From: Oscillospiraceae bacterium
Lineage (GTDB): Bacteria; Bacillota; Clostridia; Oscillospirales; Ruminococcaceae
DNA length: 58,716 bases
Direction of reading: 5' to 3'
NCBI GenBank assembly: GCA_017848115.1
Contig: JAGAKZ010000036.1
Coordinates: 1-58,716, forward strand
Positions 11,744 through 52,453 of the stretch are shown one piece after another. The notes below the pieces were generated by a model. The model saw only the letters and a list, made by a program, of their open reading frames with translations. It did not search any database and was not told where the DNA came from. Position numbers and translations under genes: made by a program. Position 1 is the stretch's first letter. Each line of letters starts with the position of its first letter.

Positions 11744-11819
11744 TAAATTCTCCCTTTCATAAAACAATTAATAATACTGATTTGATTAGCATTCAGTCTA
11801 AAATGAAAATCATGTCATT

Positions 11820-29908: not shown

Positions 29909-29945
29909 AAAAGATCGCTTTTACAATGAGCGATCACTTTTTTTT
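29907..29945. terminator. Bidirectional terminator between spoIIGA and the YlbJ-like gene
   Basis: Arms GATCGCT (29913-29919) and AGCGATC (29929-29935) are flanked by an A run and an eight-T run. The end of the YlbJ-like reading frame lies inside it. Confidence 0.75.
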
Positions 29946-31006
29946 ACTGAAAATCCTATTAACATAACAGTCATAATAATTAACAGATAAGACGGAAGAA
30001 CAGAATTGCTTTCTGAATATATTTTTATGGTTGATGCAGTAACAGCAATATCTTTTAAAAAAATGCCACACAAAATCCTGCTTATTATAAATGAAAGAAT
30101 TGAGGCAATGGCACGGTATTTTAAGAACATACATATATCTGCTCCTGATCTTAAAATTGAAAATATCTGTAATACAACACATATACCGCCTGTTGCGAAT
30201 ATTGCACTCATAGCAGATATGATATCAGGGTCACAGGTAGCAAGAGAAGTGATATTTGTTATTTCAAAAAAGGAAAGTATAAGTGTAAAACAGTCATTTT
30301 CTGAAAAATTACTTAGTTTTGATATCACTCCTGACAGTATTTCGATTGCTCCTGTACTTGTGAGAAATACTTTAAAAACAGAAAAAGCTACTATCATAGT
30401 ACACATCTGAAACATTCCCGATGATGCATTTGAAACAGAGTTTACGATGATTTGGGTAAAAGGTTTTTGTTTTTCCTGATAAACCGGTTTTTCAGGTATG
30501 TCAGATTTTATTCCGCAAAAAAATGCAAGAATAAGATTAGCAAGCGTTGTTGATAAAAATATTATCATTGAAATATTTTCGCTTCCGTATATTCGGCATA
30601 CTGCTGCTCCCGAAACAAAAGCGGGACCTGCAGAAAAACAAATACAACAGTACCTTTTTAACTGTTTATCAGTGATATTGTTGTTTGTTCTGAGTGTCTG
30701 AAGAAGCTTGGCTCCTACAGGATATCCTGAAATATTTGAAAGAATAAATACAGAAAAAATTTCTGAGGGCATCTTAAAGATAAATCTTGAAACAGGAGAA
30801 AAAACTTTACCGATAAGACGATGAAGATTGCTTTCTGTTACTATACAGGCTATTATCATCGAGCCGTACAGTGATGGTATTATTTCTTTTATACATTTTT
30901 CAAGTGAATAAGAGGTTTGGGTTATAAGTGATCTATAGTTTATAACAGATGGCAGAATGATGGATATTATTAAAATTACTGTTGCAAATTTACGGAATTT
31001 ATTCAT
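29921..31006 (-). CDS. YlbJ-like sporulation membrane protein
   Basis: This 361-residue integral membrane protein has about nine helices and the nucleoside-recognition (gate) type repeats seen in YlbJ: EIIPSLYGSMIIACIV, SNISGYPVGAKLL, CFSAGPAFVSGA, and a second half with MVAFSVF and SFFEITNIT. YlbJ is a sigma-E-dependent protein needed for spore cortex formation in Bacillus; here the call comes from the sequence pattern and the sporulation neighbours. The ATG at 31006 follows AAAGGAGTG; a longer frame from 31033 is unlikely. Confidence 0.75.
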   Translation of the reverse strand: MNKFRKFATVILIISIILPSVINYRSLITQTSYSLEKCIKEIIPSLYGSMIIACIVTESNLHRLIGKVFSPVSRFIFKMPSEIFSVFILSNISGYPVGAKLLQTLRTNNNITDKQLKRYCCICFSAGPAFVSGAAVCRIYGSENISMIIFLSTTLANLILAFFCGIKSDIPEKPVYQEKQKPFTQIIVNSVSNASSGMFQMCTMIVAFSVFKVFLTSTGAIEILSGVISKLSNFSENDCFTLILSFFEITNITSLATCDPDIISAMSAIFATGGICVVLQIFSILRSGADICMFLKYRAIASILSFIISRILCGIFLKDIAVTASTIKIYSESNSVLPSYLLIIMTVMLIGFSVKKSDRSL

Positions 31007-31110
31007 ATATGTACACTCCTTTTGAAAGTTCACTATAATTTATATGAATTAACTGTAAAAGTTATTAATATAATTTTAGTAGTCTATCATATGAGAGGAG
31101 TATTATTTCA

Positions 31111-32605: not shown

Positions 32606-32634
32606 TTGCACAACGATTGATAATATGGTATAAT
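32606..32634 (+). promoter_or_regulatory. Sigma-A promoter of the sensor-EAL gene
   Basis: TTGCAC (32606) and TATAAT (32629) are 17 bases apart. Transcription from near 32641 gives a leader of about 96 bases that contains a long hairpin. Confidence 0.7.
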
Positions 32635-32736: not shown

Positions 32737-35700
32737 GTGGGAAGAAGAAAGATTGGACTCTTACTCGGACAATCAGAAGAAAATTATCAGAAATCATTTA
32801 TAGAAGGATTTTTAAAACAAATATTTACATATGATATAGATGTGTGTGCATTTGCGATGTATAACAAATATCAGAAAACAACTGCAAGGGAAATAGGAGA
32901 AACTACAATATTCTCTCTGATAAACTATGATATGTTTGACGCTTTTGTTGTGCTTCTTGATACAATACAGACTCCCGGTGCTGCAGACAACATTGAAGAA
33001 AATTTAAAAAAATATTTTAACGGTCCGGTATTGTGTGTTGATAAGGAAAGTAAATATTTTTCTACGATACATACTGATAGTTATTCGATAGTTAAAAAAA
33101 CAATATCTCATCTTATAGAAGTGCATGGGTATACAGATATAGCTTATTTGACGGGCAAAAAATGGCACCCTCATTCTCAGGCAAGATTGAAGGCGTTTAT
33201 TGATTGTATGGAAGAACACGATCTTCCGATAAAAGAAAACCGCATTTTCTATGGGGATTTCTGGTATAGTAGCGGAGAAACAATGGTTGAGGAGCTTTTG
33301 CAGTCAGGTGGAAGTATGCCAAGAGCCATTGCCTGTGCAAATGACTGTATGACTATAGGTGTAGCACAGTCACTGGTTGCAAAGGGGTTTCGTATTCCTG
33401 AAGATGTTGCAATAATTTCCTATGATTCTATAGAAGAAGGACGAACAAGTCCCAAACCGGTAACATCTGCACCTATTCCGGCAAAATCATGCGGAACTCA
33501 TGCTGCGATTACAATAAAATCTATGCTTGATAATGAGCCTGTTCCTGATTTTGAGACAGATGTTGAATTATTTATCGGAAGTAGCTGTGGTTGTAACTTT
33601 GATAATAAAACAGTTGAAGTAAAACTACGTGAAAAGTGGGAAACAGATGATTCGGGTGAAAGTTTCTTTTCACGCTTCAATCTTATGATGGAGGACCTGC
33701 TTTCAAAATCAGAATTTAATGACCTGATGAATACTGTTTTCACATACAGCTATCAGATAAAAGGTTTTGAAAGTTTTACTATATGTCTTAATTCTCAGTG
33801 GAAAAATCGTGAAACCATGCATAACAGTGATATTAAGTGGAATGCTTATACAGAACAGATATTACCCGTGTTAAGATGTACAAATGATAATTCGGTAAAT
33901 CCTCTGAACTATGATGAAACTTTTCATAAAAGCCTTTTGATTCCTGATTTGCATGAAGAAAGAGATGTTCCGAAGGCTTTCTTCTTTACACCTTTGCATT
34001 TTGAAGAACGCTGTCTTGGTTATGCAGTTATAAGTTACGGAAATAAGCCTGTTTGTTATGATGATATATACTGGTTCTGGCTTAGAAATGTAATGCAGGG
34101 GCTTGAGTGTTTCAGACGTATTGATGCATTAAGACAGAGTAATAAGATTCTCCAGGCAAGCCAGACACGTGATTCGTTGACAGGACTTTATAATTATCAG
34201 GGTATGCTTGCACAGTGTGAAAGCTATTTTGGTCATTATGTCGGGGCACTGGCAGTTGATATAAAGGGTCTGTCGCAAATTAATGAAAAGTACGGCAGAG
34301 AAGAGGGAAATCATGCTATAAACACGATTTCTCATATAATGAACAACCTGATGGAAGATGGTATGTGCTGTCGTCTTGGTAACGGCGAGTTTGTCGGTGC
34401 TATCATATCAGATGATGATAAAAATTTCATTTATGAACTAAAGAAACTCCTTCTTGATAAATTAAAATCAGCAGATGGCTTTGCTTATGAACTGTCTGCT
34501 TATCTTGGAAGTGAAATTTCTGAGATCTCAGGTCGTGAAGATTTTGAGCGTCTTATTAATACCGCTGTTTCACAGAAAAACGGAAATAAGATAAATGAAC
34601 GTAAGACTCAGAACAGAGAAGAGCTTACAGAAGAAGAGAAAAAGGAATCTACGATAGTAAGTGATATACTCGATCAGAACCGTTTTCTTTATCATTTTCA
34701 GCCTATCGTAGATGCGAGAACAGGTGAGATATATTCATATGAAGCTTTGATGAGAGCCGATGTGACACCTTTTATATCGCCTCTTAAAATATTGAAATAT
34801 GCTGAATATCTTCATCGTTTGTATGACGTTGAGCGTCTTACTTTCTTCAATGTTCTTGATCGTGTAAAAGACGAAAAAGTTTTTAAGGAAGGCAAAAAAG
34901 TTTTTATAAACAGTATTCCCGGAAACAGACTGCATGGTATTGATGCCATGACTCTTGAGAATAAGATAAAGACATTTTCGGGCAGTGTTGTAGTTGAGCT
35001 TACAGAGCAGGCGGAATTACCTGATGATGAACTTACTGCTATGAAAGAACTTTATGCAGGAATGGGGATAGAAACGGCTGTTGATGATTACGGAACAGGA
35101 TATTCAAATATAACAAATCTGCTCAGATATATGCCAAATTACGTTAAAATAGACCGTATGCTTCTTTCAAAAATACAGGAAAGTCCGCAAAAACAGCATT
35201 TTGTGCGTGAAATCATAGAATTTGCCCATAACAATGATATAAAAGCTCTTGCAGAAGGTGTGGAAACCACAGAAGAATTACAGATGGTTATTCATCTTGG
35301 TGCAGATCTTATACAAGGTTATTATACTGCAAAGCCATCTCCTGAAATTATTCCTGAAATAAGTAAGGAAATAAAAGAAGAAATAGTAAAATTCCATCAT
35401 CAGCAAGTAATGAGTAATGATAAAAAAGTTTATACTGCAGGTAAAGAAGGCAGGATATATCTTGCAAAACTTGTTTCTGAAAAATATGCAAGTATCAATA
35501 TTGTTTCAGGAAAAACTATATACAAAGATGTTACTATTACAGGTGTACCCGGATTGCTGACGGATATCACACTGAATATAGAGAGCGGATATCAGGGAAG
35601 AATAGTACTTGAAAACGTAGGATTTTCAAGTAAAAAAGGTGCTAGTTGTATAACTCTTGGTGAAAACTGTGAAGTTCTTCTTATTCTCAAAGGGGAAAAC

Positions 35701-36501
35701 CATCTTGAAGGCGGAGGAATATGTGTTCCTGAAGGCTCCAGGCTCATATTTGAAGGAGACGGCGGTCTTATTATAAATATGAATCATGATGATTTTTATG
35801 CCATAGGAAATGATTTTAAATCAGGAAACGGTTCTATAATTTTCGGACAGGACGGCTGTATCGAGATAAATTGCAGTGGTGACCGTGGTATCGGTATCGG
35901 TTCAGGAAAAGGCGGAGAAATAGTTATCAAAAAAGGTAAGTATGAAATAGAACTGATAGGCGAAGAAGGTATAGGCATAGGTTCATACGAAGGAGATGTT
36001 GATTTGTCAATTTCAATGTGCAATATGAACCTTAATATGAACTCAACAGTTAATGTCGGAATAGGCTCTGTATACGGTTCTGTAAATCTCAGCATATCGC
36101 ATATTATGCTCAAAAATATTTCAGGCGGAACTGAAAGTGCAGGTATTGGTACTTTAAAAGGAAGTCGCTGTTTGGTAAATGTAAAAAATTCAAATCTGAA
36201 TCTGAATATGCGTTCAAATAAATTAGTGATTATCGGACAGGCAGAAGATGAATCACTGATAGATATGACTGAAGTCGGAGTTACTCTTAAAGGAGAAGGT
36301 AAAGAAGCAATGTCTCTGGGTAACTTTAAAGGTAACGGAAAAATCAGATTTTCTAACTGTGACTTAAGGTCTATTATCAGATCAAATATTGCTTCTGATA
36401 TAGGGGCTCAAAAATCAGATATTCATTTCTATAATGGTCGTGTTTATTTTGAACTTAACGGATCTGAAATAGAAAGAGAAGTAGAATACGGCGATCTCTG
36501 A
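32737..36501 (+). CDS. LacI-like sensor / middle sensor / degenerate GGDEF / EAL / beta-helix fusion protein
   Basis: This protein of about 1,254 residues has no signal peptide or membrane helix. A LacI-type periplasmic-binding-like sensor (about 4-285) ends in IGSSCGCN. A middle sensor (305-465, AFFFTPLHFEERCLGYAVIS) matches the two AraC regulators nearby. A diguanylate cyclase-like domain (477-622) keeps DSLTGLYN but reads RLGNGEF instead of GGDEF, so it is probably inactive. The EAL domain (649-882) keeps YEALMR, INSIPGN, ELTEQ, DDYGTGYSN, KIDRML, EGVETTEE and QGYY, so it probably hydrolyses cyclic-di-GMP. The last 350 residues are a Gly/Ile-rich beta-helix (GIGIGSGKGG, GIGIGSYEGD, AGIGTLKG) resembling carbohydrate-binding Cthe_2159-like domains. 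The GTG at 32737 follows GAGAGGTG; a GTG at 32686 is less likely. Confidence 0.85.
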   Translation: MGRRKIGLLLGQSEENYQKSFIEGFLKQIFTYDIDVCAFAMYNKYQKTTAREIGETTIFSLINYDMFDAFVVLLDTIQTPGAADNIEENLKKYFNGPVLCVDKESKYFSTIHTDSYSIVKKTISHLIEVHGYTDIAYLTGKKWHPHSQARLKAFIDCMEEHDLPIKENRIFYGDFWYSSGETMVEELLQSGGSMPRAIACANDCMTIGVAQSLVAKGFRIPEDVAIISYDSIEEGRTSPKPVTSAPIPAKSCGTHAAITIKSMLDNEPVPDFETDVELFIGSSCGCNFDNKTVEVKLREKWETDDSGESFFSRFNLMMEDLLSKSEFNDLMNTVFTYSYQIKGFESFTICLNSQWKNRETMHNSDIKWNAYTEQILPVLRCTNDNSVNPLNYDETFHKSLLIPDLHEERDVPKAFFFTPLHFEERCLGYAVISYGNKPVCYDDIYWFWLRNVMQGLECFRRIDALRQSNKILQASQTRDSLTGLYNYQGMLAQCESYFGHYVGALAVDIKGLSQINEKYGREEGNHAINTISHIMNNLMEDGMCCRLGNGEFVGAIISDDDKNFIYELKKLLLDKLKSADGFAYELSAYLGSEISEISGREDFERLINTAVSQKNGNKINERKTQNREELTEEEKKESTIVSDILDQNRFLYHFQPIVDARTGEIYSYEALMRADVTPFISPLKILKYAEYLHRLYDVERLTFFNVLDRVKDEKVFKEGKKVFINSIPGNRLHGIDAMTLENKIKTFSGSVVVELTEQAELPDDELTAMKELYAGMGIETAVDDYGTGYSNITNLLRYMPNYVKIDRMLLSKIQESPQKQHFVREIIEFAHNNDIKALAEGVETTEELQMVIHLGADLIQGYYTAKPSPEIIPEISKEIKEEIVKFHHQQVMSNDKKVYTAGKEGRIYLAKLVSEKYASINIVSGKTIYKDVTITGVPGLLTDITLNIESGYQGRIVLENVGFSSKKGASCITLGENCEVLLILKGENHLEGGGICVPEGSRLIFEGDGGLIINMNHDDFYAIGNDFKSGNGSIIFGQDGCIEINCSGDRGIGIGSGKGGEIVIKKGKYEIELIGEEGIGIGSYEGDVDLSISMCNMNLNMNSTVNVGIGSVYGSVNLSISHIMLKNISGGTESAGIGTLKGSRCLVNVKNSNLNLNMRSNKLVIIGQAEDESLIDMTEVGVTLKGEGKEAMSLGNFKGNGKIRFSNCDLRSIIRSNIASDIGAQKSDIHFYNGRVYFELNGSEIEREVEYGDL

Positions 36502-36519
36502 TTTATATTGTGATATTAA

Positions 36520-36562
36520 AAAAATAGTGAAATTCAAAATAAATTCGGCTTTCACTATTTTT
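36520..36562 (+). terminator. Terminator after the sensor-EAL gene
   Basis: Arms at 36520-36532 and 36550-36562 form a 13-base stem with a 17-base loop, ending in a T run. Confidence 0.8.
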
Positions 36563-36670: not shown

Positions 36671-39055
36671 ATGAAAGTAAAGAAAATAATTGCATCGGTA
36701 TTATCGCTTTTGATAGCATCATATTCTTGTTTGTCTTACGTTAAGTGTGATATAAACGCTGTTACTTCAGAGTATGTTGCACAAAAATCACGTGTTTCGG
36801 TACATGATCCGTCTGTTATAAAGGATAAAAACGGAATGTACTATATATTCGGTTCTCATGTGGCGGCAGCCAAATCATCAGATCTTCAAAGCTGGAAATC
36901 ACTTGTAAGCCGTGAATATCAGGATATGACATCTTCAAATCTTCTTTTTGGAAACGCTCACGAAAATCTTAAAAAGTCATTTGACTGGGCAGGAGAGGAT
37001 ATGCAGGACTGCAAGGGCGGTTATGCTATATGGGCACCTGATGTTTACTGGAATGAGGATTATGTAAATGATGACGGAAGCAAAGGTGCATATATGATGT
37101 ACTACAGTGCAAGCTCAACATATATGCGAAGCGTCATAGGACTTGCAGTTTCCAAAAATATCGAGGGTCCGTATATTTTTAAAGAAAATGTTATTTATTC
37201 AGGATTTACAAAAGGTGATAAAAAAGTAGGTATTTCTACAGGAGACAGTTCAACCAGAGATATAAATATAAAGTATACAAGTACAAATATTGACGAACTT
37301 GAAAAAAACGGAGAAATATCTTTTAATAACAACTGGTTTACAGATAAGGGAGAGTATAACAATTTTGATTTTCCAAATGCCATAGACCCGACTCTTTATA
37401 CAGATACTGACGGAAATCTCTGGATGTGCTATGGTTCATGGTCAGGCGGTATTTTTACACTTCAGGTCGATAAAAAGACAGGAAGTCTTATACATCCGAA
37501 ATCAGGTACTACATCTGACGGAAGAATGGTAGACAGTTATTTTGGTACAAATATATCAGGAGGCAGATATCTTTCGGGTGAAGGTCCGTTTATTGAATAC
37601 AATAAAGATACAGGTTACTATTATCTGTATGTAACATATGGCGGACTTTTATCAGAAGGCGGTTACAATATGCGTGTATTCCGTTCAAAGTCACCTGACG
37701 GACCTTTTGTTGACAGTACAGGAAGAAGTGCTTGTTTTGGAAAGAGCGACCGTACAAATGAATATGTCGGAACAAAGGTAATGGGAAACTACAAGTTCAG
37801 TTGTAACGAAACAGCGTATATGGCTTGCGGACACTGTTCATTTTTCAGAGACGATGACGGAAAGTCGTATCTTATTTATCATGCAAGATTTGATGATAAT
37901 ACAGAATATCATGAGGTAAGAGTTCATCAGCTTTATTATAACGAACAGGGCTGGCCGATAGCCGCACCTTACGAATACAGCGGTGATGAAATAAGTCAGA
38001 GCGGATATTCCAAAAATGATATGGCAGGTACATATGAGTTTGTATGGCATGGAACTGATAACGGAACCACACCGATAGCTTCAAAGGAAATTACATTAGG
38101 TATAAACGGCAAAATAAGCGGTGACGTAACAGGTACATGGTCTGCCAAATCAGAGTCGCCATATTGCACTATAAATATAGATGGTATAGAATACAGCGGA
38201 TATTTTCTGAAGATGCACGATGAAAGCAAGAGCGGAAAACAGGTCATGACTTTTGCGGCAACAGGAAATAATAATATAGTTATATGGGGAAGTAAGACAA
38301 AAGATGCCGAAGTTATAGAGGCAACTCCTATACTTAATAATGCTACCTATACATTTGAGTGTAAGTTCAGTTCGCTGGTACTTGATATACCTGACGGAAA
38401 AGCTCAGGAAGGGATCGGTATACAGCAGTGGGGAACGAATGGCGCTACTGCACAACAGTGGAAAGTAACCGAAGTTTCAGACGGATACTACAAGATAGCA
38501 TCTGTTATAAACGAAGAACTTGTTCTTACTGTAAAATCAAACGACAGTTCAAATGGTTCTGCTATTGTTTTAAGTAAATATACAGGTGCCGACAACCAGC
38601 TTTTCAGATTTGAAGAAGACGGAACAGGGTATTATGGAATTACTAGTAAATGTTCCAAAAACAAATCTGCCCTTGATGTATATGACTGGTCAACCGAGTA
38701 TGGCGGAGTCATAAATCAATGGGAGTACTGGGGCGGAGATTGCCAGTTGTGGAAAGCAATACTTGTAAAAGAACCTCAGGTAACACAGACAACAACACAA
38801 ATAACAACGCCAACAACTGTTACAACTACGGTAACTGCAACAACCGAGCCGACGTTTATGTACGGCGACCTCAATGATGACAAAATAGCAGATCTTACTG
38901 ACCTGACTCTTTTGAGTCTTCACCTTTTAAGCGACAAAATTCTTGAAGGCGCAAAACTTAAAGCAGCTGACGTAAATGCTGACAGTAAAGTTGATATCGC
39001 CGACCTTGCACATTTTAAACAGTATATTTCACATGATAATGTAGTACTGGGATAA
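36671..39055 (+). CDS. Secreted GH43 arabinanase-like enzyme with ricin-like lectin module and dockerin
   Basis: This 794-residue protein starts with a signal peptide (about 1-33). The GH43 five-blade domain (about 44-430) has the catalytic base in VHDPSVI, the Asp in AIDPTLYTDTDG and the acid Glu in SGEGPFIEY. The pattern and the following lipocalin-like domain (about 445-550, YEFVWHGTDNG) resemble endo-1,5-alpha-L-arabinanases, which cut arabinan side chains of pectin. A ricin-type CBM13-like domain follows (about 552-698, with QQW motifs), then a Thr-rich linker and a dockerin (about 730-794) with two calcium repeats (GDLNDDKIADLTDL and ADVNADSKVDIADL), so it docks on a cellulosome scaffold. 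Exact substrate is inferred. Confidence 0.88.
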   Translation: MKVKKIIASVLSLLIASYSCLSYVKCDINAVTSEYVAQKSRVSVHDPSVIKDKNGMYYIFGSHVAAAKSSDLQSWKSLVSREYQDMTSSNLLFGNAHENLKKSFDWAGEDMQDCKGGYAIWAPDVYWNEDYVNDDGSKGAYMMYYSASSTYMRSVIGLAVSKNIEGPYIFKENVIYSGFTKGDKKVGISTGDSSTRDINIKYTSTNIDELEKNGEISFNNNWFTDKGEYNNFDFPNAIDPTLYTDTDGNLWMCYGSWSGGIFTLQVDKKTGSLIHPKSGTTSDGRMVDSYFGTNISGGRYLSGEGPFIEYNKDTGYYYLYVTYGGLLSEGGYNMRVFRSKSPDGPFVDSTGRSACFGKSDRTNEYVGTKVMGNYKFSCNETAYMACGHCSFFRDDDGKSYLIYHARFDDNTEYHEVRVHQLYYNEQGWPIAAPYEYSGDEISQSGYSKNDMAGTYEFVWHGTDNGTTPIASKEITLGINGKISGDVTGTWSAKSESPYCTINIDGIEYSGYFLKMHDESKSGKQVMTFAATGNNNIVIWGSKTKDAEVIEATPILNNATYTFECKFSSLVLDIPDGKAQEGIGIQQWGTNGATAQQWKVTEVSDGYYKIASVINEELVLTVKSNDSSNGSAIVLSKYTGADNQLFRFEEDGTGYYGITSKCSKNKSALDVYDWSTEYGGVINQWEYWGGDCQLWKAILVKEPQVTQTTTQITTPTTVTTTVTATTEPTFMYGDLNDDKIADLTDLTLLSLHLLSDKILEGAKLKAADVNADSKVDIADLAHFKQYISHDNVVLG

Positions 39056-39072
39056 AAAACAATATCCGAATA

Positions 39073-39114
39073 AAAAATTTCAGCTCCATATTTTATGGGG
39101 CTGAAATTTTTTTT
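39073..39114. terminator. Bidirectional terminator embedded in the end of the downstream regulator
   Basis: A 15-base stem (39073-39087 with 39097-39111, one G-U) ends in a T run to 39114. Its right arm encodes the last residues of the minus-strand AraC protein and its loop holds that gene's TAA. Confidence 0.85.
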
Positions 39115-40880: not shown

Positions 40881-40907
40881 TCTGATTCCCTCCTTCTATA
40901 AAAATAA

Positions 40908-42899: not shown

Positions 42900-42986
42900 T
42901 ATAGACGAACAAAGTTGATAGTTAGTGTGCATATGATTGTAAATTGTATAAAAATTTAGTTTGGAATTTATGAAAGGTTGATTAAG

Positions 42987-45737
42987 ATGAAAAAAAATTT
43001 AAAGAAGGTTATGACTTTTGTGTCAGCGTTGGCATTAGTTTCTTCAACAGTATTCGGTATGTCTGTTACAAATAATGATATATTGGTCAAGGCGGCAACA
43101 GGATCAAGTATTGTTGAAAATCTTGACAGAGGTATTACAGCTGTAAATACAGGAAAAGGAATGCTTGTAAGCTGGAGATATCTTGCCAATGACAGTGATA
43201 CTGCAGAATTTAATCTGTATCGTGATGATAAGCTTGTTTACACAAGTAAATCCGGAGATGCTACCTGTTATCTTGACAGTAGTGGCAGTAGCAGTTCAAA
43301 GTACAGGGTAGATTATGTATCCGGTGGTAAAGTTATATCTTCTGAAAACTGTAACTTCATAACAAATAAAAGTTATTTTGATATACCGCTTAGTGTTCCG
43401 ACAGCTTCGGGTTGTACATACAGTGCAAATGACTGTGCAGTCGGTGACGTAGACGGTGACGGACAGTATGAGATCTTTTTGAAGTGGGATCCTTCAAACT
43501 CCAAGGATAACTCACAGGAAGGTGTTACGGGAAACGTTTTTATTGATTGTTATACACTTGAAGGTAAACGTTTGTGGAGAGTGGATCTCGGTAAAAATAT
43601 TCGTGCAGGTGCACATTATACACAGTTTCTTGTTGCCGATTTTGACTGTGACGGAAAGGCTGAGATGACTTGTAAGACTGCTGACGGTACAGTTGATGGT
43701 ACAGGTAAAGTAATAGGTGATGGCAGTAAAGATTACAGAAATAGCAAAGGATATATCCTTTCGGGTCCTGAATATTACACACTTTTTGATGGCGCTACAG
43801 GTAAGGCACTTGATACAGTTGAATACGCTTTTCCAAGAGGCAAGGTAAGCGACTGGGGTGATAATTACGGAAACCGTGTTGACAGATTTTTAGGTGCTGT
43901 GGTTTATTGTGACGGTGTAAAGCCAAGTGCTGTTTCAGTAAGAGGCTATTATACAAGAATGACAGCTGTTGCATATGACGTAGTTGATAAAAAGCTTGTT
44001 GTACGCTGGAAATATGATTCAGGAAATGATCCTAAGAAGGGCTATCACAACGGAAATCATAACTGTATGCCTGCTGACGTTGATAACGACGGTAAACAGG
44101 AACTTGTACTCGGCTCAACAGCTATCGATGACAACGGAAATCTTCTCTGGTGTAACAATCAGGGACATGGTGATGCAATGCACCTTGGTGATTTCCTTCC
44201 TGACAGAGCAGGTCTTGAACTCTGGATGTGTCATGAAAATTCTCCGTATGGCGTATCTCTTATAGATGCTAAGACCGGTAAAAATATATTCCATAAAGAT
44301 CATACCAAAGACACAGGAAGAGCTTGTTGCGGAAATATACTTGCAAGCAATCCTGGTGCTGAATTCTGGGGTGCAACAGGAAATGATATATTTGATGCAA
44401 ACGGTAAAACAATAGCTACAAACAAGCCGGCTCAGAACTTTATGATCTACTGGGACGGAGATCTCGAAAGAGAAATTCTTGACGGCACAAAGATCGACAA
44501 ATATGTAAGCTCCAGCAAAATAAACAGACTTCTTACAGCTGACGGCTGTGCTTCAAATAACAGCTCAAAGTCCAGTCCATGTCTTGCAGCAGATATTTTT
44601 GGTGACTGGCGTGAAGAACTCTTGCTCAGAACAAGCGACAGCAAATATTTAAGAGTATATTCCACAACATATGATACAGATGTACGTCTTACTACACTTA
44701 TGCATGATGTACAGTATCGTACACAGGCAGCAGGAGAACAGAACTGTTATAATCAGCCTGCACATCCAAGCTTCTATCTTGGCTCAGATGAAAAGCTTCC
44801 TTCAAGACCGGCTGTAACAGTAAACGGAAGTTCCGGTAATAATCAACCTTCAGAACCACAGGTTACAGAACCTCCTGTTACTACAGTTTCCACACCTGTA
44901 CAGACAACGGTTTCAACACAGGGAACACCTGACACATCGGGTCTCAGGGAAGGCGTTACATACAGAATCAAAAATGCAAACAGCGGACTTTATCTTGATG
45001 TAGCAAACGGTGAGTCAGCAAACTCAGCAAATGTTCAGCAGTGGACAGGCGGTGATCGTGATGCAGTTTCATGGCAACTCAAATCAGCTGGTGACGGATA
45101 TTACTATATAGTTTCACAGGTTGGTGACAAGTCATATACACTTGATGTAAGTGCAAAGAAAACAGAAAACGGTACAAATGTTGAGATATACACAATGAAG
45201 GAAGGCGAGAACCAGAAGTTCAAGTTTGTTCCTAACAGTGACGGTACATTTAAGATATTGACAAAGATATCAGGTGATAAATCATGCGTAGAAGTAGCAG
45301 ACGGCAGTAAAGAGCAGGGGGCAAATGTACAGCAGTGGGAAGTAAACAATGCAAGTTGTCAGAACTGGTATGTAGAAAATACTGACGGAAGTATAGTTAC
45401 TCCTCAGGGAACAGTTGTTACAACAACAGTTACAACTGCAGCACCGCTGGTAACATCCGCAACACCGCAGTCATCTGTAGCACCACCTGTGACATCTGTA
45501 ACGTCAACTACTGCAAATAATCAGACAAATGTTGTATACGGTGATCTTGATACCAATAAAGAAATTGATATTACCGATCTTACAATTTTGAGTCTTTACC
45601 TTCTCAGTGATGTCAAACTTAACGAATCACAACTAGAAGCTGCAGATGTAAATGCAGATGGCAAAGTTGATATCGCAGATCTGGCACATTTTAAACAATA
45701 TATTTCCAAAGATAATGTTATATTAGGAAAAAAATGA
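42987..45737 (+). CDS. Secreted PL11 rhamnogalacturonan lyase with ricin-like lectin module and dockerin
   Basis: This 916-residue protein has a signal peptide (about 1-38) and a PL11 domain (about 40-610), with NLDRGITAV, VSWRYL, the calcium-loop-like GDVDGDGQYE, LGKNIRAGAHYTQFLVADFD, KTADGTVDGTG and DLEREILDGT. These resemble YesW/YesX-type enzymes that cleave the rhamnogalacturonan I backbone by elimination. A ricin-type CBM13-like domain follows (about 650-799), then a Thr-rich linker and a dockerin (848-916, GDLDTNKEIDITDL and ADVNADGKVDIADL). I chose the ATG at 42987, with AAAGG 9 bases upstream; a TTG at 42978 overlaps that site. Endo or exo action cannot be told from the sequence here. 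Confidence 0.92.
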   Translation: MKKNLKKVMTFVSALALVSSTVFGMSVTNNDILVKAATGSSIVENLDRGITAVNTGKGMLVSWRYLANDSDTAEFNLYRDDKLVYTSKSGDATCYLDSSGSSSSKYRVDYVSGGKVISSENCNFITNKSYFDIPLSVPTASGCTYSANDCAVGDVDGDGQYEIFLKWDPSNSKDNSQEGVTGNVFIDCYTLEGKRLWRVDLGKNIRAGAHYTQFLVADFDCDGKAEMTCKTADGTVDGTGKVIGDGSKDYRNSKGYILSGPEYYTLFDGATGKALDTVEYAFPRGKVSDWGDNYGNRVDRFLGAVVYCDGVKPSAVSVRGYYTRMTAVAYDVVDKKLVVRWKYDSGNDPKKGYHNGNHNCMPADVDNDGKQELVLGSTAIDDNGNLLWCNNQGHGDAMHLGDFLPDRAGLELWMCHENSPYGVSLIDAKTGKNIFHKDHTKDTGRACCGNILASNPGAEFWGATGNDIFDANGKTIATNKPAQNFMIYWDGDLEREILDGTKIDKYVSSSKINRLLTADGCASNNSSKSSPCLAADIFGDWREELLLRTSDSKYLRVYSTTYDTDVRLTTLMHDVQYRTQAAGEQNCYNQPAHPSFYLGSDEKLPSRPAVTVNGSSGNNQPSEPQVTEPPVTTVSTPVQTTVSTQGTPDTSGLREGVTYRIKNANSGLYLDVANGESANSANVQQWTGGDRDAVSWQLKSAGDGYYYIVSQVGDKSYTLDVSAKKTENGTNVEIYTMKEGENQKFKFVPNSDGTFKILTKISGDKSCVEVADGSKEQGANVQQWEVNNASCQNWYVENTDGSIVTPQGTVVTTTVTTAAPLVTSATPQSSVAPPVTSVTSTTANNQTNVVYGDLDTNKEIDITDLTILSLYLLSDVKLNESQLEAADVNADGKVDIADLAHFKQYISKDNVILGKK

Positions 45738-45870
45738 TTAAATAGATTTGAATACATCATGTAAATGTTCAAATAGTTCATAAATTCAATGTGTTGTATG
45801 CTGTAAAGTACGAAATAATTGAATAAAATCAAATAAATCAAAAACATCATTAAAATATTCAAATTACTCA

Positions 45871-45899
45871 TGGATATAGAATACTATTTATTATATAAT
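45871..45899 (+). promoter_or_regulatory. Possible promoter of the first double-CE12 gene
   Basis: The -10 box TATAAT is at 45894 and is followed by ATATTTGTAAAGAGTGATAAA. Parts of this recur after the GH43 -10 box (TATTTGTAAA) and the second PL11 -10 box (GAGTGATAAA). The -35 (TGGATA at 45871, N17) is poor. It lies 270 bases before the ATG. Confidence 0.4.
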
Positions 45900-46058
45900 A
45901 TATTTGTAAAGAGTGATAAATACAAATATAAAATATTAAAAAATATATTTATATTGATGTTTATAGTAAATAATCAAGTAATATTAATATTTATATAGTT
46001 TTGTATTTCATTGATATTTCTTTCTTAATAACAATTCACATACATGACGATTTGATTA

Positions 46059-46095
46059 ATGAAATATCCACTGTAAAGTGTGGTGGATATTTCAT
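46059..46095 (+). promoter_or_regulatory. Inverted repeat in the leader of the first double-CE12 gene
   Basis: Perfect 13-base arms (ATGAAATATCCAC at 46059 and GTGGATATTTCAT ending at 46095) enclose 11 bases. The following bases (AATTGGG) are not a T run, so a leader structure or operator is as likely as a terminator. Confidence 0.5.
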
Positions 46096-46170
46096 AATTG
46101 GGTCGTTTTGAAGATGAAAGTGTATTAAAAGAACATAGTTCTTAATATAAATAATAGAAGGGAAGTTTTT

Positions 46171-49100
46171 ATGAATAAAGTATTGAAAAATGCTGTATCA
46201 ATGCTTACAGCGCTTCTCGTTGCCGCTTCTTCATCAATGCCTATGATGAAAAACAGTATAGTGGATAACACAAGTACAGTTTATGCAGCTGCGAGTAATT
46301 ACAAATTTGACTTCGGCGGTGGCGGAACAGCAAACGGTTATACCGGTGTTTCTGCTAAAGATGCGTACAGTGCTTCAAAAGGATATGGATTTGTAAGCAC
46401 AGGAAATGTATCAAACGTTTCAGCCAAAGGTTCAGGTGCTTATTCTGATGCGGTTCAGTTCAACAATGCGTCAGCCAACAATGTATTCAAGGTTGATTTA
46501 CCAAAGGGCGCCTACAATGTAAAGGTTGTAACAGGAAACGTATCACGTACATCTATCAAGATGGAAGGTATGCTTCAGATGATAAACCTGACAGGTAACA
46601 ATGCTGTAGAAACAATACAGATACCTGTTACAGACGGTAGTCTTGAGATTCAGGCGTGTGCCGGAAAATCAGGTACAGCATATTCAATTTCAGCAGTTGA
46701 AATTACGCAGGTAAATACAACAGGACAAACTGATCCGACAATATGGATATGTGGTGACTCTACAGTTTGTAACTACTATAATTCATCAGACAGTTCACAG
46801 CATGGTTGGGGTCAGTTCCTTGAAGATTATATCGATGAAGATTACTGGCAGGTAAGAAATATGGCTGCCTCAGGTCAGTATGCAAAAGGCTTCGTGGACG
46901 CAGGTCAGTTCAAAGCTATTGAGTATTACGGTAAAAAAGGTGACGTATATATTATCTCGATCGGTATCAACGATACAAACTATTCTGATAAAGATGAATA
47001 TTATAAGACAGTTACCGACATGGTAAAGAAATCTAAAGCCAAGGGCGTTGAGGTTATCCTTGTTAAACAGCAGGGACGTCGTAGTGACTTACAGAAAAAT
47101 CCTCTTCTCAACAGCCGTTGGTTTGCAGGACAGCTTGATCAGGTTGGTAAAGAGCAGAATGTTGAAGTTATGAATCTGTTCAAAGCATGGCAGGATTTTG
47201 GTGTAGGTGTAGGATATGCAAAAATGGCTGACTACTACGCTATCAAAAATGGTGGCGGTAATGATGACCTCCATCAGAGTATGAAGGGAGCCAAGAAACT
47301 TGCTGAACTTGTAGCAAAGCTTCATGATTTCAAGGCAACAGGCGGTACAGCAAATCCTCCTGCTACAACACAGGCTCCGGTTGTAACAACACAGACACCA
47401 TCAAGTTCACTTACAGCTGAAGTTTTTGATGAAAGTGCTACATATACTTTTAAGAACGTAAACAGCGGACTTTATATGGAAGTTGCTGAAGAAAATGCCC
47501 AAAGTGGTGCAAATGTACAGCAGTGGACCAAAAACGGAGAAGCTAAGCACAATGTATGGAGGCTTAAATCAGCAGGAAACGGTTACTACTACATCTATTC
47601 CGGACTTTCCGATACAGTTGTTCTTGATGTTTCAGGAAACAAGGCGACAAACGGACAGAATGTCGGAATGTACAATATGAAAGAAAGTAATAACCAGCAG
47701 TTCAAGTTTACAAAGAACGCTGACGGTTCATACAAGATCCGTACAAAGGTTTCAGGTGACGCTTCAGTAGTTGAAGTTGAAAGTGGTTCTACAAATACAG
47801 GTGCAAATGTACAGCAGTGGGAAGCAAATGGCTCCAAGTGTCAGGACTGGTTTATTGAACCGGTTACATCACAGCAGCCAATAGTAACAACACAGCCAAC
47901 ACAGCCAACACAGCCAGTAGTGACAACTACACCTGTAGTTTCATCAGGTCTTATTTACGGCGATTTTACAGGGGACGGAGTAGTGGAACTTACAGACCTT
48001 ACACTTCTTAGTCTTCATCTTCTTGGCGACAAGATGATAAACTCAAATATACTTGCAGCAGCCGATGTAAACGGAAGTGGTTCTGTTGATATTGCAGATC
48101 TTGCTACACTTAAGCAGTATATTTCAAAAGAGAATGCCGGTCTTATAGGACAGCCGATAAATGGAGGACAGACACCAAGTCAGCCTTCTCAGACACAGCC
48201 GGTACAGACACAGCCAGCACAGACACAACCTGTGCAGACACAGCCTTCACAGCCACAGCTTAATGTTTATCCTGCAGTTGATGCAACTTTAAATAAGGCT
48301 GCTTCAGAAGATACAAATGCAGGTTACGAAAGCAAAGCATATGTAAATCTTGATAATGAAAAGGGAAGCTCAATAGAGTGGACAGTAAATGTACAAAGCA
48401 ATGGAAACTATCTCGTTGATTTCAGAGTAGCAAACGGAAGTGCAAACGACAGAGCTATGAAGATTGAAGTGAATGGTGATACAACAAATTACTGGATACA
48501 GCCATTCCTTACAACAGGCGAATGGACTAAGTGGGAAACAAGAGGTATAGTTCTTCCACTTAAAGCAGGCGCAAACAAGATCAAAGCAATTTCAAATACT
48601 AACGAGGGCGGACCAAATATTGACTATATAACACTTGAACTTACAGATGAACCAATAGCTGAAATATATCAGCCGGAACAGACTCCAAGTTATCCACAGT
48701 CAGATAACCCTGTAGTATATATAGCAGGTGACTCAACAGTTCAGAGCTACAAAGCAAGTTATGCTCCTCAGCAGGGTTGGGGTTATTACCTCGGAAACTA
48801 TTTTAACAAGAATGTTTCAGTATCAAATCAGGCTATAGCAGGCAGAAGTTCAAAGAGCTTTTATGATAACGGCAGACTTGATACTATACTCAAAGATATG
48901 AAGAAGGGTGACTATCTTCTTGTTCAGTTCGGTATAAATGATGCTGCTTCTAACAAGGCTGAAAGATATGCACCGGTAAGCGGTTCGGTTACAAATGCCA
49001 AGAATGGTTCTTTTGAATACTACATGAAGAAGTATATTGAAGGTACTATTGATAAAGGTGGTACACCGATACTCGTTACAACAGTTATAGGACTTAAAGC

Positions 49101-49383
49101 TTATTCAGGCGGAAAGTTCGTAAATTCTTACACAGGTTACTGCAAAGCAATGAAGGATCTTGCAGCTTATTATAAAATACCATGTATCGACCTCAATACT
49201 CTCATGGTAAATCATTATAATTCTATAGGATACAATAAAGCTAAGCTTTATCATCTCCATGGTGTAGTGAGCGGTTCTAACGACATGACTCATTTCAGTG
49301 AAGAGGGAGCTAATGCAGTAGCAAAGATAGTAGCAAATGCTATCAAGGGACTTAATATTCCTCTTTCAGATTCAGTTAAGTAG
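46171..49383 (+). CDS. Secreted double CE12 rhamnogalacturonan acetylesterase with lectin, internal dockerin and CBM35
   Basis: This 1,070-residue protein has a signal peptide (about 1-40) and an N-terminal beta-sandwich (42-180, KFDFGGGGTANGYTGVSA) of the type found in YxiM-like acetylesterases. The first SGNH esterase (188-390) has CGDSTVCNYY, AASGQY, GINDTN and a DxxH in NDDLHQS. A ricin-type CBM13-like domain follows (417-567), a dockerin (592-660), a TQP-rich linker, a CBM35-like domain (698-827) and a second SGNH esterase (846-1070, AGDSTVQSY, AGRSSKS, GINDAA, NDMTHFS). Both esterases keep the Ser/Gly/Asn/His set. They should remove acetyl groups from rhamnogalacturonan I so that lyases can act. 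The ATG follows GAAGGGAAG. Confidence 0.9.
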   Translation: MNKVLKNAVSMLTALLVAASSSMPMMKNSIVDNTSTVYAAASNYKFDFGGGGTANGYTGVSAKDAYSASKGYGFVSTGNVSNVSAKGSGAYSDAVQFNNASANNVFKVDLPKGAYNVKVVTGNVSRTSIKMEGMLQMINLTGNNAVETIQIPVTDGSLEIQACAGKSGTAYSISAVEITQVNTTGQTDPTIWICGDSTVCNYYNSSDSSQHGWGQFLEDYIDEDYWQVRNMAASGQYAKGFVDAGQFKAIEYYGKKGDVYIISIGINDTNYSDKDEYYKTVTDMVKKSKAKGVEVILVKQQGRRSDLQKNPLLNSRWFAGQLDQVGKEQNVEVMNLFKAWQDFGVGVGYAKMADYYAIKNGGGNDDLHQSMKGAKKLAELVAKLHDFKATGGTANPPATTQAPVVTTQTPSSSLTAEVFDESATYTFKNVNSGLYMEVAEENAQSGANVQQWTKNGEAKHNVWRLKSAGNGYYYIYSGLSDTVVLDVSGNKATNGQNVGMYNMKESNNQQFKFTKNADGSYKIRTKVSGDASVVEVESGSTNTGANVQQWEANGSKCQDWFIEPVTSQQPIVTTQPTQPTQPVVTTTPVVSSGLIYGDFTGDGVVELTDLTLLSLHLLGDKMINSNILAAADVNGSGSVDIADLATLKQYISKENAGLIGQPINGGQTPSQPSQTQPVQTQPAQTQPVQTQPSQPQLNVYPAVDATLNKAASEDTNAGYESKAYVNLDNEKGSSIEWTVNVQSNGNYLVDFRVANGSANDRAMKIEVNGDTTNYWIQPFLTTGEWTKWETRGIVLPLKAGANKIKAISNTNEGGPNIDYITLELTDEPIAEIYQPEQTPSYPQSDNPVVYIAGDSTVQSYKASYAPQQGWGYYLGNYFNKNVSVSNQAIAGRSSKSFYDNGRLDTILKDMKKGDYLLVQFGINDAASNKAERYAPVSGSVTNAKNGSFEYYMKKYIEGTIDKGGTPILVTTVIGLKAYSGGKFVNSYTGYCKAMKDLAAYYKIPCIDLNTLMVNHYNSIGYNKAKLYHLHGVVSGSNDMTHFSEEGANAVAKIVANAIKGLNIPLSDSVK
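48172..48261 (+). repeat. Short in-frame CAGACACAGCC-type repeats (TQP linker)
   Basis: Repeated CAG-ACA-CAG-CC units encode a QTQPVQTQPAQTQP linker between the dockerin and the CBM35-like domain; a similar short run occurs at 47893-47918. It is coding, not a CRISPR array. Confidence 0.85.
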
Positions 49384-49436
49384 GAAGAAGATTCCTCCTT
49401 AAGACTTAATCACTTAAAATCCAAACTAAAACAAAG

Positions 49437-49476
49437 ACAAAAACTCTGACAGGTTAAATCTTGTCAGAGTTTTTGT
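49437..49476 (+). terminator. Terminator after the first double-CE12 gene
   Basis: A 15-base stem (49437-49451 with 49462-49476) with a 10-base loop includes and is followed by T-rich DNA. Confidence 0.85.
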
Positions 49477-49562
49477 TTTGTAATTGTAATAAATAAAAAT
49501 ATTTTATGTTTTTTTGTGCAATATAACAAATCAATATAAAGAAAATATATAAAAATTAAGAA

Positions 49563-49591
49563 TTGATTATTATCACTAAATTGTTTATAAT
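49563..49591 (+). promoter_or_regulatory. Promoter of the second PL11 gene (TTGATT-N17-TATAAT)
   Basis: TTGATT (49563) and TATAAT (49586) are 17 bases apart. An inverted repeat, TCACTAAAT at 49573 and ATTTAGTGA ending at 49602, flanks the -10 box and could be an operator. Confidence 0.65.
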
Positions 49592-49680
49592 ATATTTAGT
49601 GAGTGATAAAGTTAGGATAAAAAATTAGAAAAAAGTGTATGGTTAAAAATGTGAATCGCTTTTGGAAAGGAATGTTTAAA

Positions 49681-52368
49681 ATGAATAATTTGAAAAAAAC
49701 AGTTGCGGCTGTACTTTCGCTTGCTTTAGCAACGGGAGGTGTCAGTGGTGCAGGTAACACACGTATTGTGGATGCCGCATACGGAACAGGAAAGAACATA
49801 GTTGAGTATCTCAACAGAGGTATATCAGCTGTAAAAACCGGTTCAGGAATGCTTGTTAGCTGGCGTTATCTTGCAAGCGACTCAGATAATGCGGTATTTA
49901 ATCTATATCGCGACGGAAACCTTATCTACACAAGTGAGGCAGGAAAAGCAACCTGTTATCTTGACAAATCCGGAAATGCGTCTTCAAAATATCGTGTAGA
50001 TACTGTAGAAGGCGGTAGTGTTGTGTCAAGTGAAGACTGTTACATTCAGTCTGGAAACGATTACTTCGACATAAAACTGGATGTTCCGAATGGGAATGAC
50101 TGCACATACAGTCCAAATGATTGCTCTTTTGGTGATGTAGACGGAGACGGTCAGTATGAGATCTTTGTAAAATGGAATCCTTCAAATGCAAAAGATAACT
50201 CACAGAGTGGATATACCGGAAATGTGTATATTGATTGTTATACACTGGGAGGACAGAAACTCTGGAGAATAGACCTCGGAAAAAATATACGTGCAGGAGC
50301 ACATTATACACAGTTCCTCGTTGCAGACTTTGATTGTGACGGATATGCTGAAATGACTTGTAAGACAGCTGACGGAACGGTTGACGGAACCGGTAAGGTA
50401 ATAGGTGATGCAAGTAAAGACTACAGAAACAGTTCAGGATATATTCTTTCAGGACCTGAGTATTATACGCTTTTTGACGGTAAAACAGGTAAGGCACTCG
50501 ATACTGTTGATTATGAACATCCAAGAGGAAACTCACTAAAATCAACATGGGGCGATGATTACGGAAACCGTGTTGACAGATTTTTAGGAACAGTAGCTTA
50601 TCTTGACGGAGAACGTCCGAGTGCAGTTTCTGTAAGAGGATATTACACAAGAATGACAGCAGTAGCTTATGATGTAGTGAATGATAAGCTTGTTAAACGC
50701 TGGGCTTTTGATACAGGAACAAATTCATCGGCACCTGGCTGGGGTGACGGAAATCATAACTGTATGCCTGCCGATGTGGACGGAGACGGTAAACAGGAAA
50801 TAGTTCTTGGTGCTACTTGTCTTGATGACAACGGAAAAGTACTCTGGTGTACAAATCTTGGACATGGTGATGCTATGCATCTCGGAGATCTTCTTCCGGA
50901 CAGATCGGGACTTGAAGTTTTTGTGTGTCATGAAGATAAAAACTCAGGCTGGGGTGTCAGTCTTATAGATGCTAAAGACGGAAAAATTGTTTTCCATAAA
51001 GATCATACAAAAGATACCGGACGTTGTTGCGCAGGAAATATTTATGCCGAAAATCCCGGCGGTGAATTCTGGGGCGCTACATCAAATGATATATTTGACG
51101 GAACAGGAAAAACAATAGCTTCAAATAAACCCGGACAAAACTTCCTTATTTACTGGGACGGCGATCTTGAAAGAGAAATACTTGACGGTACAAAGATCTC
51201 GGCTTATGATGGACCGGATAAAATATCTGTACTTTTAAATCCGAGCGGTGTGCAGTCCTGTAACGGTACTAAGGCAACACCTTGTCTTTCAGCTGATCTT
51301 TTTGGTGACTGGAGAGAGGAACTTGTTCTTGCAACCAGCGATAATAATGCTTTAAGAGTATTCTGTACACCTTATACAACGGATTATCGTCTGACAACAC
51401 TTGAACATGACGTACAGTATCGTACTCAGGCGGCTACAGAACAGAACTGTTATAATCAGCCACCGCATCAGAGTTTCTATCTTGGCTCAGACAAGTCGCT
51501 TCCGGAAAGACCGGCAGTAAAACTTAACGGAAAAGGTTCGTCACAGACTCCGTCAGGTCCTGCAGTTACTACACCTCCTGCAACTGATGACCTCAACACA
51601 GACGTTCTTTATATGATAAAAAATGTAAACAGCGGTCTTTATCTTGATGTTGAAGATGGTGTATCAAACGTTGCACAGATGACAGCAAACAGTGGTGCAG
51701 ACGGAACAAATACATGGAAGCTTGTTCCTACAGGTGACGGATATTATTATCTGTATTCACAGACATCTGAAAATATGGTACTTGATGTTGCTGGAAAGAA
51801 AACAGATAATGGTACAAATATTCTGATATATACATACAAGGGAACAGAAAATCAGCATTTTAAACTTGTAAAGAATAATGATGGTTCATACAAGATATGT
51901 ACACGTATTTCAGGAGATAAATCATGTGTTGAAGTAATCAATGGACTTAGTACAGAAGGAGCAAATGTACAGCAGTATGAAATCAACGGTTTCAATTGTC
52001 AGGACTGGTACTTCACACCTGTTGAAAATAAGCCTGAACAGACAACAACTCAGGCACCTGTAACAACAACAGTAACAACAACCACAACTACTACGGTTGC
52101 TACTGCACCTGCACCTGTAACATCAATAACAACAACTACTACTGTGTCACAGGAACAGAATGTAGTTTATGGTGATATAAATTTTGATGGTGAAGTAGAT
52201 CTTACAGACCTTACTTATCTTAGTTTGTATCTTCTTAATGACAGACAATTTGATGATATGCAACTTAAAGTTTCTGATGTAAGTTTTGACGGTGTTATTA
52301 ATGTCGGGGATCTGGCATATCTTAAACAGTATATTTGTCTTGATCCGATAATACTTGGACCACAGTGA
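49681..52368 (+). CDS. Secreted PL11 rhamnogalacturonan lyase with ricin-like lectin module and dockerin (second copy)
   Basis: This 895-residue protein has the same build as the first lyase: signal peptide (1-30), PL11 domain (about 35-617: YLNRGISAV, GDVDGDGQYE, RAGAHYTQFLVADFDC, KTADGTVDGTG), ricin-type CBM13-like domain (637-783), a linker of Thr runs and a dockerin (827-895). The second dockerin repeat reads SDVSFDGVINVGDL in place of ADVNADGKVDIADL, so its calcium loop or partner specificity may differ. The lectin part is closer to that of the next gene than to the first lyase. I chose the ATG at 49681, with AAAGGA 9 bases upstream, over an ATG at 49639. Confidence 0.92.
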   Translation: MNNLKKTVAAVLSLALATGGVSGAGNTRIVDAAYGTGKNIVEYLNRGISAVKTGSGMLVSWRYLASDSDNAVFNLYRDGNLIYTSEAGKATCYLDKSGNASSKYRVDTVEGGSVVSSEDCYIQSGNDYFDIKLDVPNGNDCTYSPNDCSFGDVDGDGQYEIFVKWNPSNAKDNSQSGYTGNVYIDCYTLGGQKLWRIDLGKNIRAGAHYTQFLVADFDCDGYAEMTCKTADGTVDGTGKVIGDASKDYRNSSGYILSGPEYYTLFDGKTGKALDTVDYEHPRGNSLKSTWGDDYGNRVDRFLGTVAYLDGERPSAVSVRGYYTRMTAVAYDVVNDKLVKRWAFDTGTNSSAPGWGDGNHNCMPADVDGDGKQEIVLGATCLDDNGKVLWCTNLGHGDAMHLGDLLPDRSGLEVFVCHEDKNSGWGVSLIDAKDGKIVFHKDHTKDTGRCCAGNIYAENPGGEFWGATSNDIFDGTGKTIASNKPGQNFLIYWDGDLEREILDGTKISAYDGPDKISVLLNPSGVQSCNGTKATPCLSADLFGDWREELVLATSDNNALRVFCTPYTTDYRLTTLEHDVQYRTQAATEQNCYNQPPHQSFYLGSDKSLPERPAVKLNGKGSSQTPSGPAVTTPPATDDLNTDVLYMIKNVNSGLYLDVEDGVSNVAQMTANSGADGTNTWKLVPTGDGYYYLYSQTSENMVLDVAGKKTDNGTNILIYTYKGTENQHFKLVKNNDGSYKICTRISGDKSCVEVINGLSTEGANVQQYEINGFNCQDWYFTPVENKPEQTTTQAPVTTTVTTTTTTTVATAPAPVTSITTTTTVSQEQNVVYGDINFDGEVDLTDLTYLSLYLLNDRQFDDMQLKVSDVSFDGVINVGDLAYLKQYICLDPIILGPQ

Positions 52369-52390
52369 GTATATTGATTTTTTGATAAAT

Positions 52391-52425
52391 AATATCCATC
52401 TGAAATAACTCAGATGGATATTTTT
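52391..52425 (+). terminator. Terminator or attenuator between the second lyase and esterase genes
   Basis: A perfect 13-base stem (52391-52403 with 52410-52422) with a six-base loop runs into TTTTT. The next gene starts 29 bases later with no clear promoter of its own, so partial read-through is likely. Confidence 0.75.
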
Positions 52426-52453
52426 AAATATGGATTTTAAGGAGGAAATTTTA

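Follow-up and report, generated by a model that had tools for sequence, protein, structure and literature searches.

The window analysed here is a stretch of 58,716 nucleotides of an Oscillospiraceae bacterium (contig JAGAKZ010000036.1) in which a single long gene encodes a multidomain protein, hereafter the window protein, whose features and neighbours are collected in Table 1. The GTG codon at 32737 was retained as the better start because it is preceded by GAGAGGTG, which resembles a ribosome-binding site, and because relatives start at the corresponding place. A promoter-like site lies upstream of the gene and another precedes the GH43 gene, both being consensus matches only; nine such sites were found in the region against a mean of 19.1 in shuffled sequence. 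The hairpin located between the two genes was not listed by a terminator scan of the region, and no Rfam family was found within the window. As described in an earlier note made from the sequence, the gene borders a pectin locus. The GH43 enzyme, the two RGL11 lyases and the two GDSL esterases are encoded downstream, and all five carry dockerins.

Pfam models recognised, in this order, a LacI-type binding domain, a weak GGDEF domain and an EAL domain, and no family matched residues ca. 893-1254. Together with residue checks and AlphaFold prediction, this bears out the layout proposed in the earlier note, namely a LacI sensor, a middle domain, a GNGEF motif, an intact EAL domain and a beta-helix tail. 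That note had seen neither signal peptide nor membrane segment, and a simple hydropathy scan of the protein likewise found no membrane or hydrophobic segment, so that export of the tail is not supported.

Table 1. Features of the gene and of its surroundings in the window
Feature	Position	Strand	Basis
Upstream promoter-like site: TGCACA and TATAAT spaced by 16 nt, TG extended	32607..32634	+	Consensus match only
Whole gene, 1254 aa, GTG start	32737..36501	+	ORF; start positions of relatives
LacI-type sugar-binding sensor domain without DNA-binding head	32746..33585	+	Pfam Peripla_BP_1, Peripla_BP_3; PDB LacI/CcpA/PurR matches
Middle domain (bounds approximate), also in the two downstream LacI-AraC regulators	33604..34146	+	27% identity over sensor and middle domain
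Degenerate GGDEF domain, motif GNGEF at 34378-34392	34168..34572	+	Pfam; motif alignment
EAL domain, 12 signature residues	34663..35337	+	Pfam; residue spacing
C-terminal right-handed beta-helix tail (predicted); better conserved half ca. 35413-35922	35413..36498	+	AlphaFold, structural comparison, alignment
A+T-rich hairpin (13 outer pairs) separating the gene from GH43; may be a terminator	36520..36562	+	Folding, -11.7 kcal/mol, z -4.4
GH43 with ricin-B lectin and dockerin domains	36671..39055	+	Domain annotation
Two LacI-sensor/AraC regulators, 69% mutual identity	39093..42686	-	Domain annotation, comparison
Four dockerin-bearing enzymes: two rhamnogalacturonan lyases (RGL11), two GDSL esterases	42978..55060	+	

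The sensor scores 84.9 bits against Peripla_BP_3 (cut-off 26.5) and 47.6 bits against Peripla_BP_1 (cut-off 22.2). It resembles LacI, CcpA and PurR domains by family match and by sequence similarity to solved structures, but differs in having no DNA-binding head and in being coupled to an EAL output. In 70 of the 77 N-termini compared, that of the window included, a LacI-type sensor was detected with an E value no worse than 0.01. Candidate pocket positions were chosen by eye with LacI as a guide; in ungapped rows, R150 (70/70), D174, W176 and N202 (70/71 each), D203 (71/72), D75 and Q78 (69/70 each) are nearly constant, whereas D230 (61/73) and W143 (53/70) vary. The several near-constant positions hint at a common ligand for ca. 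70 relatives having varied neighbours, and the window sensor probably binds a sugar or a sugar-like metabolite. A 2022 review (PMC8846402) describes periplasmic-binding-protein sensors as prevalent with GGDEF and EAL domains and states that LacI-like sensors may bind sugars. The middle domain matched no Pfam family above cut-off, a single sub-threshold match being to ORC4_C. The sensor and the middle domain together correspond to the N-terminal part of the two downstream regulators, with 24-27% identity over ca. 465 residues (E 1e-45 for the 27% pair), while these regulators differ by an AraC DNA-binding output and have neither EAL nor tail. Relatives bearing the LacI domain without such neighbours mostly show 37-64% identity to the window protein in the N-terminal part.

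The GG(D/E)EF motif of active diguanylate cyclases is absent from the window protein, which reads GNGEF instead. A GGDEF domain was recognisable in 24 of 77 N-ends (window included), and the motif reads GNGE- in 24 and GTGE- in one of the 25 sequences with this region, which argues for a fixed family trait rather than for recent decay. The EAL domain reaches 167.8 bits against Pfam (cut-off 31.3) and is nearest by sequence, among solved EAL structures, to 6ifq. All 12 metal, substrate and catalytic residues of the RocR type, which we take to be Q161, E175, R179, N233, E265, E268, D295, D296, K316, E352, E355 and Q372, were identical in 81 of 81 sequences when matched by spacing, so that cyclic di-GMP phosphodiesterase activity is likely. 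R179, E352 and E355 are named, together with the ExL motif and loop 6, in PMC12943098. The window protein shares the EAL signature residues and the GGDEF-EAL order with enzymes of the RocR, PRK10060, GepA and DosP type but is distinguished from them by the C-terminal beta-helix, the GNGEF motif and the LacI-type cytosolic sensor; its GGDEF-EAL part scores 118 and 113 bits with the PRK10060 and GepA models, far under their respective cut-offs of 782 and 1200.

AlphaFold predicts the tail as a long, regular right-handed beta-helix (pLDDT 95.7), i.e. the fold that the earlier note had expected and not an unrelated shape, and the predicted structure matches solved right-handed parallel beta-helices. 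The best of the 50 structural matches listed is the L. reuteri SRRP, which belongs to a class of surface adhesins according to PMC6973325. Cthe_2159 structures are not among these 50 matches, an observation that bears neither way. When EAL and tail were modelled together (pLDDT 91.4, pTM 0.60), both domains came out firmly but their mutual placing did not; a hinge may lie between them, of which a pTM of 0.60 is no proof. No Pfam family matched more than two of 76 tails, and a PDB search with the tail profile returned only two arginase matches near E 1, a single tail giving none.

The tail evolves faster than the EAL domain, with mean identities of 36% and 57%, respectively. Within the tail, the mean is 45% for the first half and 28% for the second, the distal half and the C end being least conserved. 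Polar residues R14, D39, E67, Q146 and N349 are constant at 82-100%, a set that also includes a histidine at position 139 where the window protein has N. Many other conserved residues are glycines or likely core positions that may only hold the fold. Pairwise distances correlate between EAL and tail (r 0.815), sensor and tail (0.799) and sensor and EAL (0.768), values that do not single out the EAL-tail pair.

The combination of EAL and tail was found to be widespread. Scanning named genomes for both retrieved at least 559 relatives among at least 594 pattern matches. The best 80 of them, which were kept for comparison, all extend from the EAL domain into the tail (the shortest reaching residue 503 of 632) and are labelled as Lachnospiraceae, Ruminococcus flavefaciens, R. 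albus and other Clostridia, chiefly of rumen or gut, two being labelled as Bacteroidales/Bacteroides. That scan used EAL patterns and cannot show that the tail needs an EAL domain, a question that a tail-only profile can address. With the tail alone, matches were found in 19 of 198 genomes (own genome included), and for 20 of the 23 matches an EAL domain is encoded in the same gene; of the remaining three, L019 and L023 are stumps at contig ends, and one is a further fragment of a protein counted before. At the 20 loci from other genomes, the EAL domain stands directly ahead of the tail in 19, the remaining one (L043) being truncated where its contig ends. Across 394 genomes of the order, the tail profile gave 29 matches, of which 18 span most of the tail and 11 are partial, and across 398 genomes of the phylum it gave four, three of them spanning most of the tail. 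Matches covering at least 235 of the 361 tail positions carry the EAL motifs DDxGxG and QG in 18/18 cases in the order set (ExL pattern in 17/18) and all three motifs in 4/4 in the phylum set, two of which are shared with the order set.

These data indicate that the pairing of EAL and beta-helix tail is no one-off but recurs as a fixed unit among Clostridia of the rumen and gut. Its N-terminal inputs vary and consist of a LacI sensor, of ca. 50-100 residues only, or of a pair of membrane segments; with the latter, detected at 4 of the 20 loci, EAL and tail would still face the cytosol. Among the immediate neighbours of the relatives (135 found, 123 scanned), 118 families were recorded, and the first 25 listed show no dominant partner, the counts being 12 for DUF4236, 10 for GGDEF, 10 for endonuclease/phosphatase and 9 for EAL. 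No PilZ domain, a reader of cyclic di-GMP, was found in the own genome, which is 81% complete.

As to the origin of the tail, the tail profile also detected 12 proteins with weak matches to parts of tail residues 18-195, all of them lacking the EAL motifs ExL and DDxGxG. Judged by eye, 10 of the 12 begin with an export-like segment; of the other two, one has no N-end (L169) and one has a wall-anchor-like C-end (L176). For these secreted beta-helix surface proteins with GIGGG repeats we use the label GIGGG, coined here after the motif. Seven proteins of this type aligned with the first half of the tail in hhalign at 98.8%, with 31% identity over 148 columns, against 11% for the reversed sequences, although these proteins had largely been picked by the tail profile itself. 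A plain HMMER test reported 5 of 16 sequences and none of the 16 reversed ones, but missed L166 and L167, the strongest weak relatives in the tail-profile search. The evidence for homology between the first tail half and the secreted GIGGG proteins is good but not beyond doubt.

The earlier note had placed the tail in the style of Cthe_2159, which holds for the fold and probably for a remote relationship; hhalign puts the secreted GIGGG proteins nearer, and no PF14262 match was found for the window tail. In hhalign, Cthe_2159-type proteins scored 92.9% (reversed, 1.2%) with six members, two of which were assigned by eye and had been picked by the tail profile, and 62.6% with the four Pfam-assigned members. 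Neither the window protein nor its tail matches PF14262 over the curated cut-off and only one of 76 tails does at all (E 0.032), so that membership in this family was rejected. Within the own genome, a single full tail is detected by the tail profile, besides a partial and weak match (E 0.0014) to one of the Cthe_2159 proteins; the four PF14262 proteins of this genome are separate genes and look secreted by eye, whereas the window protein has no hydrophobic segment for secretion. Cthe_2159 proteins are beta-helices, and the family binds cellulose and polygalacturonate according to PMC6712302. Given the likely homology to secreted GIGGG proteins and, more remotely, to Cthe_2159, the tail looks like a surface module that was recruited into the cytosol.

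We propose, with about an even chance of being right, that the protein is a cytosolic sugar-gated cyclic di-GMP phosphodiesterase whose beta-helix docks to a partner. On binding a sugar or sugar-like metabolite, the LacI-type domain would close, and this motion would pass by way of the middle domain and of the GGDEF domain, catalytically dead and possibly GTP-binding, to EAL domains that cut cyclic di-GMP as a dimer. The beta-helix, drawn from the secreted GIGGG/Cthe_2159 stock, would form a rigid rod on a hinge and serve as a docking or targeting module, its conserved first half, beside the EAL domain, binding a cytosolic partner (protein or glycan) that would restrict the enzyme to one place or pool.

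The tail most likely serves for docking to a cytosolic partner, oligomerisation and glycan binding being live rivals. Beta-helices of bactofilins stack into cytosolic filaments, and the ends or edges of the tail might similarly stack into assemblies or filaments on which activity depends. This rod-like role, which we rate as rather unlikely, would suit the long regular fold that is predicted, the conservation of the first half and the fact that EAL enzymes act as dimers (PMC12943098), but end-to-end stacking needs conservation precisely in the distal half and C end, where it is lowest. Less probable is that the former surface carbohydrate-binding helix now reads an intracellular polymer or glycan, such as a glycogen-like store or an imported oligosaccharide, and thereby steers the phosphodiesterase, sugar being sensed at two points, the LacI domain and the tail; the surface-type beta-helices among its relatives, the ligands of the Cthe_2159 family and the SRRP match all point this way. 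That the tail is a loosely constrained cap or passenger without a specific partner agrees with its faster change and with conservation falling largely on glycine and core positions, yet this is very improbable, as the first half retains its mean identity, the polar residues and the histidine at position 139 are kept, and tail-led searches, in whose scope tail-less EAL genes do not fall, met no EAL-tail unit broken other than by contig ends.

The earlier note had further seen in the protein a phosphodiesterase gated by pectin sugars that switches between adhesion and pectin feeding, which we consider less likely again than glycan reading by the tail. It is favoured by the adjoining pectin genes, by the two neighbouring AraC regulators with the same sensor layout and by a c-di-GMP-I riboswitch located, in the same genome, upstream of a dockerin/transglutaminase gene, from which cyclic di-GMP may govern part of the cellulosome. 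The case against it rests mainly on the relatives, as homologues of the pectin enzymes of the window occur in the flanks of 0/80 of them, these flanks being up to ca. 6 kb long (at least 3 kb downstream in 62 and 5 kb in 58), which in the layout of the window would take in the GH43 gene and the regulators yet stop short of the lyases, which begin 6.5 kb downstream. Pectin enzymes were likewise found at 0/20 further loci (in a 99% relative, L024, the contig ends just past the gene), and a pectin gene neighbourhood is not supported as a conserved feature within these flanks. The hairpin standing between the gene and GH43 and the several pocket positions that stay nearly constant across unlinked relatives also argue against a pectin-specific gate. 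What is supported of the earlier reading is that the protein is a phosphodiesterase of the cytosol that probably senses sugar, that its cyclase motif is dead and that its beta-helix has secreted relatives; the pectin-specific gate is not supported.

Cyclic di-GMP enzymes are, in our judgement, a heavily surveyed signalling class. Titles and abstract starts of the open-licence literature, searched for EAL with beta-helix, LacI, Ruminococcus or carbohydrate-binding, contained no description of the EAL-tail unit, which is real, recurrent and undescribed in that literature, and a variant of EAL phosphodiesterases. If the tail reads an intracellular polymer or glycan, an EAL enzyme would be steered by a beta-helix solenoid, for which no example was found in the same literature, and cyclic di-GMP breakdown would be tied directly to the food eaten or stored. 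The unit also offers a testable case of a fold of the extracellular adhesin type turned into a cytosolic control part. Gut and rumen bacteria, in which it recurs, could use it to control whether they live attached or free. The tail defines a domain, an EAL-associated beta-helix, that could be added to databases. Finally, the own genome contains 14 EAL and 39 GGDEF matches.

Two c-di-GMP-I riboswitches were detected in the genome to which the window belongs, each on a different contig (C103 and C42; see table). The one on C103 precedes a gene encoding a 683-aa transglutaminase-dockerin protein and, because of this position, a cellulosome-type protein of this genome may be under cyclic di-GMP control. 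The second riboswitch is followed ca. 560 bases downstream by a mannose-6-phosphate isomerase gene, after which comes a gene of the ROK family.

Riboswitches of the window's own genome and other genes of the window
Feature	Location	Strand	Details
c-di-GMP-I riboswitch	C103:22901-22984	minus	73.4 bits; within L183 (G000:C103:16000-23400)
Second c-di-GMP-I riboswitch	C42:57204-57321	plus	58.1 bits; within L184 (G000:C42:56800-64000)
Non-ribosomal peptide synthetase-type protein, 1176 aa	window, 8237-11767		adenylation, carrier and condensation domains
370-aa protein	window, 29921-31033		no Pfam match
Two LacI-sensor/AraC regulators	window, 39093-42686		in tandem; 69% identity to each other

In the pectin locus, the tandem LacI-sensor/AraC regulators both carry a sensor and a middle domain of the same kind as those found in the EAL protein, and the pair is likely to have arisen by duplication within this locus.

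Among the 123 neighbours scanned in the flanks of the best 80 of at least 559 relatives matched by EAL plus tail (L054-L133), 12 matched DUF4236 and 10 an endonuclease/exonuclease/phosphatase family. Two close EAL-tail relatives, with tail identities of 44% (L059) and 42% (L060), occur in records titled Bacteroidales/Bacteroides, which may reflect either mislabelled bins or transfer. In two loci (L107 and L028), a LacI-type sensor is encoded upstream of the EAL-tail gene in a frame of its own; these may correspond to split genes or to assembly frameshifts. Finally, a tail-led locus of another genome (L043) encodes a relative of the window's 370-aa protein (28% identity); the beta-helix tail of the EAL protein is present there as a stump, along with a relative of YqfD.
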